64,000 nucleotides of DNA. It comes from Pararhizobium sp. GTDB taxonomy: Bacteria > Pseudomonadota > Alphaproteobacteria > Rhizobiales > Rhizobiaceae. The translations under genes were made by a program, and so were the position numbers. The notes under the pieces are model-generated. The model saw only the letters and a list, made by a program, of their open reading frames with translations, ran no database searches and was not told the origin of the DNA. Of the stretch, positions 38,498 through 64,000 are shown in pieces; positions within the stretch are counted from its first letter, which is position 1, and each line of letters starts with the position of its first letter. The stretch covers positions 1,922,001 through 1,986,000 of the forward strand of contig CP051237.1 of the NCBI GenBank assembly GCA_017794825.1. The letters run 5' to 3'.

Positions 38498-39640
38498 TCA
38501 ATTCGACGTCCTTGTCTTCGCGAGCTGTTTCGCGGCCTCGGCGTACCCGCCCTCCGCGCCATCGATGAAATGCATGTGACCGGAAGCTTGTACGGATGGC
38601 GCGACACACGTAATCAGCGCCTTGTCCTGCGTGTGCATGCCGTATCTGACCACGCCCTTCGCCACTTCCTTGTCGAGCAGATCGCGGGCCTTTTCGATGA
38701 CGTCAGGCGAGCAGTCGATGGTCATCATCAGCGAATCGTCGAATTTTCGATAGTCCGAGTTTTCGGCTATTTCACGCCGGTATCGCGCGGGGCGAAACCC
38801 TCCCACTCTCAGCCCCAGCCTGAACACAGTCCAGGCGAAGGCTGCGCTCAAATAGACCCTGATCAGCCGCAGAGGCCTGGACTTTCCCCTGCCAGCGACG
38901 CGGGACTGAAGATCGAGAACATCGCCGGGCCACCTTACACGCGGACCATCAGGCGGCACCGGGTTGAGATGCTCGCTGCCCTCAAGAATATCGATGACGA
39001 GCGACGCCACCGCCGCGAAACGGGCCTGGGAGACCCCCTGAGCCGGCTTCACGATCAGGGAGAGAATTGTTACGCGGGCTTCGACGGGGCCCCATTGACA
39101 GGAAAGGCCAGTAAGATCCGGCGCGTCGCCAGCGACAGCGGGCGCAAGACGCAGGGAACCGTTCTTCAGTTGTTCTTCCGCCCATTCGAGCCCGCCGCCC
39201 ATGAAGGACGCATACTGCACATGGCTTGAGGCTTTCCAGAACGCGACACGAACATCGACGCCCGCCTTCCGGATGGCCTCGATGCTGACAATCGCGACAC
39301 GCAAGTCGAGCTGAAGTTCCTCCTTTGCCCAGGTCGCGACACGCGACAGGGCTTCGGAGGTTTTCTGCCTATGCCGTTCGGGAACCGCGAACCTCGCTCC
39401 GTCGCCGCCAAAAATGAAGAGCCTGAGATCACCGTTCAAAGCATTCGAAACGGCGCTGATCGTGGCTGCGCCCGCCAGATTGACAGCCTTGTAGCGTCCT
39501 TTTGCAATCTCCTCGGTAGAATTGACGATGTCGGACACGCCGACATGCCAGTCGTCGGGCAAGCCGACAAAACGGGACTGGTCGGTCACATCGACGAAAT
39601 CGTCGATGACGGCCACTGATTTGTACCAGTCGTCTTCCAC
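38498..39640 (-). CDS. DUF3095 protein with cyclase-like motif pattern (copy 1)
   Basis: Cytoplasmic protein of 380 residues matching the DUF3095 family, of unknown function. The N-terminal region reads LPDDWHVGVSDIVNSTEEIAKGRYK, with Asp37, then FIFGGDGARFAVP with Asp80. The DI...43 residues...GGD spacing and the GG-D-G hairpin resemble the metal site of GGDEF cyclases and class III cyclases (two metal ligands 43-44 residues apart). Further conserved segments are FMGGGLEWAEEQLKNG, DAPDLTGLSCQW, and the C-terminal GMHTQDKALITCVAP. The start is GTG with GGAG 9 bases upstream. It follows hslO on the same strand (127-base gap). A second copy starts at 63331. Cyclase activity is inference only. 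Confidence 0.85.
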   Translation of the reverse strand: MEDDWYKSVAVIDDFVDVTDQSRFVGLPDDWHVGVSDIVNSTEEIAKGRYKAVNLAGAATISAVSNALNGDLRLFIFGGDGARFAVPERHRQKTSEALSRVATWAKEELQLDLRVAIVSIEAIRKAGVDVRVAFWKASSHVQYASFMGGGLEWAEEQLKNGSLRLAPAVAGDAPDLTGLSCQWGPVEARVTILSLIVKPAQGVSQARFAAVASLVIDILEGSEHLNPVPPDGPRVRWPGDVLDLQSRVAGRGKSRPLRLIRVYLSAAFAWTVFRLGLRVGGFRPARYRREIAENSDYRKFDDSLMMTIDCSPDVIEKARDLLDKEVAKGVVRYGMHTQDKALITCVAPSVQASGHMHFIDGAEGGYAEAAKQLAKTRTSN

Positions 39641-43347: not shown

Positions 43348-43866
43348 ATGAGCTGGACTGACGAACGCGTCGAAAAACTGAAACAACTGTGGGGCGATGG
43401 CCTGAGCGCGAGTCAGATTGCGGCCCAGCTTGGCGGCATCAGCCGAAACGCTGTTATCGGCAAGGTGCATCGGCTGAACCTGCCCGGCCGGGCCAAATCC
43501 GGCGGATCCTCCGCGTCTCGCAGCAAAAGGACAACCACTGCGCAACGGAGTTCGTTTTCCGCTCGCGCCGCCAGTCCTCGTCCGGTGATGCGCACAAGCG
43601 GCGCGACCGCCCTGAAGGCGGACATCGTCGCTGACGCCGTCAGGAATCTGGATACGCGTCCGATCGAGGACGTGGTGGTTCCGATATTCAAAAAACTCGA
43701 ACTGACGGAGCTGACGGAACGGACCTGCAAATGGCCGGTCGGCGATCCGCTGCAGGATGATTTCTATTTCTGCGGCAGCGACTGCGAGGAATCCGGCCCC
43801 TATTGCACCTACCACTCCAAGCTGGCGTTTCAGCCGGCCGCTGACCGACGCCGGTCGAAGGGCTGA
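43348..43866 (+). CDS. gcrA: Cell-cycle sigma factor cofactor GcrA
   Basis: Alphaproteobacterial cell-cycle regulator of 172 residues that binds RNA polymerase sigma70 and prefers promoters with methylated GANTC. The N-terminal DNA-binding helix-turn-helix reads MSWTDERVEKLKQLWGDGLSASQIAAQLGGISRNAVIGKVHRLNL. A basic Ser-rich linker (about 48-85) follows, then a C-terminal segment TERTCKWPVGDPLQDDFYFCG with further Cys (SDCEESGPYCTYHS), the sigma2-binding region. The ATG follows GAGGGG. It is monocistronic and divergent from argD. Confidence 0.96.
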   Translation: MSWTDERVEKLKQLWGDGLSASQIAAQLGGISRNAVIGKVHRLNLPGRAKSGGSSASRSKRTTTAQRSSFSARAASPRPVMRTSGATALKADIVADAVRNLDTRPIEDVVVPIFKKLELTELTERTCKWPVGDPLQDDFYFCGSDCEESGPYCTYHSKLAFQPAADRRRSKG

Positions 43867-44057: not shown

Positions 44058-44257
44058 AATCTGGCTTTGTTTCGGGAATCCGGATTTCAGGCGTTCGCCT
44101 CTTCATCTTCCGCCACGCAGACGCGTGGCGACTGGATGCCGGATCAAGTCCGGCAGGAGGGTTCGTGGTGGGGCTTGTTTCTCATTCTGGCTTTGTTTCG
44201 GGAATTCGGTGTTTCGAGGCTTTGGCTTTGTTTCGGGATTCGGAGACCATCCGGAAA
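44058..44257 (+). repeat. 200-bp compound repeat, unit 1
   Basis: First unit of a tandem array that fills the gene-free stretch 43867-44847. It begins AATCTGGCTTTG, carries TTCAGGCGTTCGCCTCTTC, hairpin CCACGC/GCGTGG (44113-44128), hairpin TGCCGGA/TCCGGCA (44138-44156), GGAGGGTTCGTGGTGGGG, then two more copies of TGGCTTTGTTTCGGG and a CGGAGACCATCCGG palindrome. The array is preceded by an AT-rich segment (43980-44030). Confidence 0.92.
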
Positions 44258-44504
44258 AATCTGGCTTTGTTTCGGGAATCGGCGATTTTTGCTCCCGTTT
44301 GGCGCATCCGCGTTCGTTTCGGGAATCCCGATTTCAGGCGTTCGCCTCTTCATCTTCCGCCACGCAGACGCGTGGCGGCTGGATGCCGGATCAAGTTCGG
44401 CAGGAGGGTTTGTGGTGGGGCCTGTTTCACAATCTGGCTTTGTTTCGGGAATTCGGTGTTTCGAGGCTTTGGCTTTGTTTCGGGATTCGGAGACCATCCG
44501 GAAA
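44258..44504 (+). repeat. 200-bp compound repeat, unit 2 with a 47-base insertion
   Basis: Same order as unit 1, but the opening motif is followed by about 47 extra bases that repeat the array's right end (AATCTGGCTTTG...AATCGGYGATTTTY) before a diverged restart at about 44311. One base of the second hairpin is changed (GTTCGGCA), breaking a pair. Apart from this it is nearly identical to units 1 and 3. Confidence 0.9.
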
Positions 44505-44704
44505 AATCTGGCTTTGTTTCGGGAATCCGGATTTCAGGCGTTCGCCTCTTCATCTTCCGCCACGCAGACGCGTGGCGACTGGATGCCGGATCAAGTCCGG
44601 CAGGAGGGTTCGTGGTGGGGCTTGCTTCACATTCTGGCTTTGTTTCGGGAATTCGCTGTTTCGAGGCTTTGGCTTTGTTTCGGAATTCGGAGACCATCCG
44701 GAAA
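44505..44704 (+). repeat. 200-bp compound repeat, unit 3
   Basis: Exactly 200 bases like unit 1 and almost identical to it. It is followed by a partial unit at 44705-44737 that ends the array. The unit length is not a multiple of three, yet all three plus-strand frames stay open across the array. Confidence 0.92.
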
Positions 44705-44805
44705 AATCTGGCTTTGTTTCGGGAATCGGTGATTTTCGTCCAGTCCCGGTCGCAACAAGGCTGTGAAAACTCAGCGACCAGACCTGCATTCTAACACAAA
44801 CGGCC

Positions 44806-44847: not shown

Positions 44848-45537
44848 TCAGTTTTCCAGCGAGTAGCCGGCGCCGCGAACGGTGCGTATGACGTCTTTCA
44901 TGTTGGCGAGGTTGAGCGCCTTGCGCAGCCGTCCGACATGCACGTCCACCGTGCGTTCGTCGACATAGATGTCGTGCCCCCAGACCCCGTCCAGCAACTG
45001 GGAACGCGAAAAGACCCTGGTCGGGGACGCCATGAAAAACTCGAGCAGGCGAAACTCGGTCGGACCCAGCTTGATTTCGCGGCCCTTGCGATAGACGCGA
45101 TGGGTTTCACGGTCCAGCTCGATATCGCCGCTCTTGAGCACAGTGGAAATCGCTTCCGGCTTTGCACGGCGCAGCAGCGCGCGTACGCGCGCCATAAGCT
45201 CCGGCGTGGAGAACGGTTTGACCACGTAGTCATCGGCGCCGGTCGCAAGCCCGCGCACGCGCTCGCTTTCCTCGCCGCGCGCCGTGAGCATGATGATCGG
45301 CAGCCGCTCGGACTCCGGCCGCACGCGCAAGCGGCGGCACAGCTCGATACCGGAGAGGCCCGGAAGCATCCAGTCGAGGATCAGAAGATCCGGCAATCGT
45401 TCCTGCAGTTTCAGTTCGGCCTCGTCGCCGCGAAAGACGGTGTCCACGTCGTAGCCTTCCGCTTCCAGATTGTACCGGAGCAGAACGCTCAGCGCCTCTT
45501 CGTCTTCGACGACGGTAATTTGCGGTGCAATGCCCAT
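44848..45537 (-). CDS. phoB: Phosphate regulon response regulator PhoB
   Basis: OmpR-type response regulator of 229 residues. The receiver has EDE (11-13), phospho-acceptor Asp55 in LLILDWMLPG and Lys107 in DYVVKPFS. The winged-helix DNA-binding domain (about 125-229) includes THRVYRKGREIKLGPTEFRLLEFFMASPTRVFSRSQLLDGVWG and YVDERTVDVHVGRLRKALN. It would be phosphorylated by PhoR and bind Pho boxes such as those before pstS. Last gene of the pst cluster, 35 bases after phoU. Confidence 0.96.
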   Translation of the reverse strand: MGIAPQITVVEDEEALSVLLRYNLEAEGYDVDTVFRGDEAELKLQERLPDLLILDWMLPGLSGIELCRRLRVRPESERLPIIMLTARGEESERVRGLATGADDYVVKPFSTPELMARVRALLRRAKPEAISTVLKSGDIELDRETHRVYRKGREIKLGPTEFRLLEFFMASPTRVFSRSQLLDGVWGHDIYVDERTVDVHVGRLRKALNLANMKDVIRTVRGAGYSLEN

Positions 45538-63330: not shown

Positions 63331-64000
63331 ATGACGCCGAACGCCAGCACTGAGACATCCAGCAATCCGGACAGCTTTTATGACCGGCTAGCGGTACACG
63401 ACAGCTTCGAGGCGATGAGCCGACCCGGCGTCTATGCGAAGTTGCCCGACGACTGGTTTGTCGGCGCAGCAGACATTGTCGGTTCAACCGACGAGATCGC
63501 GAAGGGCCGCTACAAGGTGGTCAACACGGTGGGCGCCGCGGTCATTTCCGCTCAAATCAATGCTGTCGGCGCGCTTCGCTTTCCATATATATTCGGCGGC
63601 GACGGCGCGGCTTTCGCCCTGCCGCAAAGCCAACGAGACAAAGCCGAGAAGGCGCTTGCCGCGGTGATTCGCTGGGCGCGCGAAGAATTCAGTCTGGAAA
63701 TGCGCGGCGCCATCGTTCCCGTGTCGACGATCCGGGAAAATGGGCTGGACGTGGCCGTCGCCCGCTACCGCGCCTCGAAAGGCGTGGATTATGCGATGTT
63801 TGCGGGCGGGGGCATGACGTGGACGGATCGTCAGATGAAGGAAGGCAAGTTTCGCCTGGAAGCCGCTCCCGCGGGCGCGCGACCGGATCTGACGGGTCTG
63901 TCATGCCGGTGGACGCCGATCCGCGCCCGGAAGGGCAAGATCCTGTCGCTGCTCGTGCTGCCCGAAAAAGACGCGGACGCCGATGAACTGGCCCGTCTCT
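63331..64000 (+). CDS. DUF3095 protein with cyclase-like motif pattern (copy 2), cut by the window end
   Basis: The frame is open from the ATG at 63331 to the end of the window (223 residues seen) and the stop lies outside. The ATG follows a strong GGGGGAGGCAGG. It is clearly a paralogue of the gene at 38498-39640: LPDDWFVGAADIVGSTDEIAKGRYK with Asp48, YIFGGDGAAFALP with Asp91, then FAGGGMTWTDRQMKEGKF and PDLTGLSCRW. The Asp-to-GGD spacing is 43 residues, identical to copy 1. The N-terminal 30 residues differ. Cyclase-like chemistry is inference. Confidence 0.85.
   Translation, partial: MTPNASTETSSNPDSFYDRLAVHDSFEAMSRPGVYAKLPDDWFVGAADIVGSTDEIAKGRYKVVNTVGAAVISAQINAVGALRFPYIFGGDGAAFALPQSQRDKAEKALAAVIRWAREEFSLEMRGAIVPVSTIRENGLDVAVARYRASKGVDYAMFAGGGMTWTDRQMKEGKFRLEAAPAGARPDLTGLSCRWTPIRARKGKILSLLVLPEKDADADELARL

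Follow-up and report, generated by a model that had tools for sequence, protein, structure and literature searches.

In a window of 64,000 nucleotides from Pararhizobium sp. (the whole stretch analysed: contig CP051237.1 of assembly GCA_017794825.1, positions 1,922,001 to 1,986,000 of the forward strand), the gene at 38498..39640 encodes a protein of the family DUF3095. Judging from its structural model and its invariant residues, we put at about even the chance that DUF3095 is a single-chain, two-domain relative of the class III nucleotidyl cyclases that likely cyclises a nucleoside triphosphate (NTP). The protein matches the family profile PF11294 at 399.5 bits against a curated cut-off of 22.2, from residue 6 to residue 373 and over model positions 2-377 of 378, and its GTG start is identical to that of the orthologue from Flavimaribacter sediminis (locus L003). 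Between these two orthologues the nonsynonymous divergence (dN) is 0.052 and the synonymous divergence (dS) 0.534, and the gene is under purifying selection. No NCBIfam model matches the protein, a sequence search of the PDB found no credible relative, and in the literature library searched no study came up under DUF3095 or PF11294. The search tool's 14 control genomes lack the family, which may help explain this absence of studies. The PDB sequence matches that did appear, a DARPin fusion (E 7e-4), four weaker ones and four profile matches with E >0.5, were rejected as chance, as were weak Pfam matches such as ACP_syn_III, whose best E was 0.0014 and which appeared in 26 of the 106 members scanned.

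Predicted fold

The gene and the parts predicted for its product are as follows.

38498..39640, minus strand: DUF3095 gene, an open reading frame of 380 amino acids with a GTG start
39164..39547, minus strand: predicted N-terminal cyclase-homology-like half (N-half), residues 32-159, with the order b1-a-b2-b3-a3-b4-b5-b6-a4 in the AlphaFold2 secondary structure
38510..39088, minus strand: predicted C-terminal ferredoxin-like, C2-like half (C-half), residues 185-377
38762..38926, minus strand: helical insertion of the C-half, residues 239-293 (helices 239-246, 255-275 and 284-293 in the AlphaFold2 model), shortened in a paralogue group

The earlier note on this DNA had proposed structure prediction as a check on a cyclase assignment; the prediction did not return an unrelated fold, and DUF3095 very probably has a fold of the cyclase type. 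The structures that match the model best are class III cyclases whose single chain carries two catalytic domains, and in full-length superposition both predicted halves fit their C1-C2 pairs; class III structures of one domain cover roughly residues 5-174. The model thus predicts a tandem arrangement of two cyclase-like halves in one chain. The repeat is visible in topology only: an internal duplication at the sequence level was rejected, the profiles of the two halves matching each other with a probability of 1.5%. GTP cyclohydrolase III and GGDEF are not among the structural matches listed for the full model, an absence that does not count against either, and a viral structure library gave no match at E≤0.001. 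Membrane anchoring by the helical insertion was also considered; its hydropathy is moderate, with 26 of 128 sequences reaching 1.6 over 19 residues.

The fold was also checked by profile comparison. Aligned with the genome's own 28 class III domains, the N-half profile scores 31.6 (hhalign probability 41.9%), and 200 column permutations averaged 13.2 and reached at most 23.7. With GGDEF domains (14 of the 16 matches in the genome) it scores 21.8, the null maximum being 20.7 and the probability 3.8%. For reference, class III and GGDEF, two families taken as related, score 33.3 against each other (51.3%). The genome itself (6.06 Mb) is rich in nucleotide signalling, with 28 Guanylate_cyc and 16 GGDEF matches.

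Invariant residues and a putative composite site

Residue conservation was counted in 287 aligned DUF3095 proteins, and invariance also in 128 sequences below 75% identity. The codons of four residues of the proposed site are as follows.

39530..39532, minus strand: Asp37, predicted first metal ligand, where b1 ends (DIVNST); Asp in all 285 homologues that cover this column
39401..39403, minus strand: Asp80, predicted second metal ligand, in the hairpin between b2 and b3 (FGGDGA); Asp in all 286 homologues that cover this column
38744..38746, minus strand: Lys299, candidate substrate-binding lysine in the b2'-b3' hairpin of the C-half; Lys in 128 of 128
38570..38572, minus strand: His357, on b6' (HFxDG..GGY); invariant in 128 of 128

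Both aspartate codons read GTC on the plus strand and GAC on the gene strand. The 43-residue spacing between them, in which the earlier note had recognised that of GGDEF metal ligands, holds in 282 of 285 homologues (42 in the other three), and GGD likewise lies 43 residues after the first metal Asp in all 12 GGDEF domains of the genome that the spacing pattern parsed. Among its class III domains, 25 of 28 of which were parsed, the spacing is 44 in 20 and 43 in two, the other three being clear mis-parses. Thus, the spacing by itself hardly separates GGDEF from class III and favours neither strongly. Since aspartate is universal at both columns and the gene is under purifying selection, the metal-site pattern is nevertheless more than chance.

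A likeness of the GGD-G hairpin to GGDEF had also been noted. The pattern is real, and most DUF3095 proteins carry FGGDG. GGDEF is still the weaker comparison, because the first glycine (Gly78) is not fixed (Gly in 120 of 128 sequences, other residues in eight, FRGDG in the two paralogues read), tandem class III cyclases give the best structural match, and the C-half takes the place of a second domain. Never replaced in the 287 proteins are Ser41, Asn54, Gly79, Gly81, Arg114, Cys181, Cys345, His357 and Asp360, and Lys159 is replaced once, by Arg. In the non-redundant set 24 positions are invariant, ten in the N-half, two in the linker and 12 in the C-half, which makes the degenerate sensor envisaged as the other possibility less likely.

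These residues suggest a composite site. Arg114 lies in the LRV strand of the N-half, and we take it to be the equivalent of the pyrophosphate-side Arg of C1 domains. The C-half has no Asp at the end of b1', and C2 of animal cyclases likewise lacks one at the end of b1. The motif KxxGD, present in 27 of the 28 class III cyclases of the genome, occurs in none of the 287 DUF3095 sequences, and the invariant Lys299 sits in the topologically corresponding hairpin of the C-half; compared by eye on the predicted topology, it may correspond to the Lys of KxxGD. In addition, the N-half has a DxxxS(T) loop resembling one in CaGC, a class III guanylyl cyclase in which the backbone of that loop holds the triphosphate (PMC7384201). 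We infer that one NTP and two metal ions, held through Asp37 and Asp80, would bind in the cleft between the halves. In this scheme the N-half would act as C1, contributing the metal ions, the triphosphate loop DxxxST and Arg114, and the C-half as C2, forming the base and closure side with Lys299, His357 and Asp360. The bound NTP would then likely be converted to a cyclic nucleotide.

Linkage to a class III cyclase gene

Inspection by eye of 27 loci showed no constant neighbour of DUF3095; in a 28th the simple gene picker had lost DUF3095 itself. A wider scan of 60 loci, not all of them independent, found a class III cyclase within the stretch in 15 and a GGDEF gene in eight. Twelve of those 15 cyclases belong to one subtype with an N-terminal part that has no Pfam match; the subtype was delimited at E≤1e-60, a cut that also admits relatives at 33-41% identity. 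Across 151 genomes of the taxonomic family, the linked subtype occurs in 62, DUF3095 in 61 and both in 55. The two genes lie within 10 kb of each other in 27 of these 55 genomes, nine pairs being only 76-221 bp apart, and a control cyclase was found near DUF3095 in four of 49. Among the 27 linked pairs, 22 are in tandem, separated by 76 bp to 10 kb and always with DUF3095 ahead of the cyclase, and five are divergent, about 200 bp apart. Many of the tandem pairs may descend from a single cluster, shared ancestry inflating the count, and contig ends conceal some pairs. The linkage in many relatives suggests a role for DUF3095 in cyclic-nucleotide signalling.

The linked cyclases have features of their own. 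In five of them (L135:9109-10422, L128:5430-6689, L138:4383-5705, L109:4765-6192 and L129:11134-12477) a Ser or Asp stands at the position of the KxxGD Lys, unlike nearly all cyclases of the genome studied here, and in the four scanned the N-terminal 200 or so amino acids are without a Pfam match. The match to this subtype in the present genome (G000:C1:3309108-3310262, near locus L079) contains one in-frame TAG and is far from both DUF3095 genes; that of another genome of the genus (G001) has no stop.

Points against the cyclase assignment and alternative explanations

A number of results weigh against a nucleotidyl cyclase. The Asn/Arg motif of class III (NxAxR), which matches 25 of the 28 class III domains of the genome (two probably by chance), is found in the C-half helix of none of 286 DUF3095 proteins, in the N-half helix of one of 287 and anywhere in 17 of 287. 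The site is therefore non-canonical for class III, and a standard cyclase producing cyclic AMP or cyclic GMP should not be assumed. The class III residue equated with Arg114 is picked up by a crude pattern in only 13 of 28 cyclases of the genome. Structurally, the query-normalised template-modelling scores from Foldseek are low (0.34-0.43 in the top 14, with a root-mean-square deviation >11 Å), and the C-half alone does not separate from generic ferredoxin-like folds such as ribosomal S6. The protein also stops directly after helix a4', leaving no evident counterpart of the later cyclase part, which in CaGC carries Lys612 on the gamma phosphate (PMC7384201). The profile match of the N-half to class III appears modest beside that between class III and GGDEF. 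Pfam Guanylate_cyc does not match the window protein at E≤10; neither it nor GGDEF is among 25 of the 33 Pfam families matched by 106 members, and no further Pfam domain is annotated in the 240 homologues listed from a search of restricted length range. Co-occurrence of DUF3095 with the linked cyclase across genomes is non-specific. Two other class III cyclases show the same pattern, with DUF3095 in 49 of 54 genomes of the one and in 34 of 38 of the other, so co-occurrence was not used as evidence and physical linkage alone was. Finally, no cyclase gene lies near either copy in the genome studied here, within 8 kb on each side of 38498-39640 or in the 2.4 and 11.5 kb beside the second. The hidden nucleotidyl cyclase suspected by the earlier note thus keeps a predicted cyclase-type fold and an intact two-aspartate site and lacks the canonical motif, whose function may be supplied by other conserved residues (His357, Asp360, Tyr366).

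The strongest alternative, possible though clearly less likely than an even chance, is a metal-dependent enzyme that shares this fold and acts on NTPs but yields something other than a 3',5'-cyclic mononucleotide. It might, for instance, hydrolyse nucleotides, open a ring, or join nucleotides into oligonucleotides or dinucleotides as the palm of Cas10 does. Archaeal GTP cyclohydrolase III, a ring-opening enzyme, has a similar fold. Cas10/Csm1 shares palm-like domains with DUF3095, enters the Foldseek list from rank 16 and is the best match of the C-half. The active palm of Cas10 is the second, whereas the metal site of DUF3095 lies in the first half. The full-length superposition favours tandem cyclases over such an enzyme, linkage to a cyclase gene suits signalling better, and no constant metabolic neighbourhood is apparent by eye.

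A catalytically dead pseudo-cyclase, which would bind an NTP or cyclic nucleotide and regulate a partner, possibly the neighbouring class III cyclase, seems improbable. The missing Asn/Arg motif and the proximity of the linked cyclase, at its closest in the nine pairs 76-221 bp apart, would fit such a protein; yet the two metal aspartates and 22 other positions never vary all the way from rhizobia to cyanobacteria, an unusual constancy in a protein that only binds a ligand, and for many DUF3095 genes, both copies of the genome studied here among them, the surrounding DNA that was scanned holds no cyclase. A GGDEF-type diguanylate cyclase hidden in DUF3095 is very unlikely. The spacing of 43, the GGD-G hairpin, a profile score just above the null maximum and the GGDEF gene in eight of the 60 loci would fit it, and the predicted fold is probably related to the palm-like one of GGDEF domains; but class III scores higher, tandem class III structures occupy the top of the structural list, the first G is variable, and GG[DE]EF is absent.

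For DUF3095 as a relative of the class III cyclases, the nearest known systems compare as follows. The Pycsar clade A pyrimidine cyclase PaPycC (PDB 6YII) has two cyclase domains per chain (PMC11224242), as is predicted for DUF3095; DUF3095 differs in having no credible sequence match in the PDB, no apparent constant partner gene and, in seven proteins, no match to the PADLOC defence models, a library whose coverage of Pycsar clade A is unchecked. Compared with the tandem C1-C2 cyclases of mammals (AC9, AC8, AC5 and soluble AC), the whole DUF3095 protein has only about 380 amino acids, and its C-half ends after helix a4', has a helical insertion and is without NxAxR. Bacterial single-domain class III cyclases (CyaC, Rv1900c, OaPAC and others) form their site by dimerisation, whereas DUF3095 would have both halves in one chain with one metal site.

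Distribution and paralogues

DUF3095 is present in 17 of 41 near relatives and in 53 of 398 genomes of the phylum (the genome itself counted in both), in 249 of 72,556 plasmid records and, as a single partial match, in phage records. One search gave at least 4366 homologues at E≤0.001 from at least 7998 candidates, and named members include rhizobia, Magnetococci (with sequences named as Magnetococcus), many cyanobacteria and one Chloroflexales bacterium. A wider claim, which we advance tentatively and think rather less probable than the cyclase assignment itself, is that DUF3095 is a large, ancient and overlooked class of single-chain nucleotidyl cyclases of proteobacteria, cyanobacteria and Chloroflexi, in which a new catalytic half (Lys299, His357, Asp360) replaces Asn/Arg and which makes a nucleotide messenger of its own, alongside the canonical cyclase in rhizobia. 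Activity at the predicted site would mean that rhizobia and cyanobacteria have a further, widespread enzyme of nucleotide signalling, one whose catalytic half differs from the known type.

The genome holds a second copy, 44% identical to the first.

63331..64000, plus strand, continuing past the window end (complete at L001:1456-2640): DUF3095 paralogue of 394 amino acids

In a family tree of 132 sequences the two copies stand on separate branches, and their common ancestor spans 85 of the 132. The second copy keeps the aspartate motifs DIVGST and FGGDGA, and an ABC substrate-binding-like gene lies downstream (L001:2760-3824). A shorter paralogue is found at L125:1962-3188 and L127:2289-3326, with split matches in genomes G083, G472, G506 and G549; its C-half helical insertion is reduced and FRGDG replaces FGGDG, and both sequences read retain the two aspartates and the C-terminal motif.

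Elsewhere in the window, 44058-44736 contains three direct copies of a 232-nucleotide repeat, the second and third 92% and 98% identical to the first, with spacings of 247 and 200. The repeats are open in several frames and are located between the open reading frames at 43348-43866 and 44848-45537.
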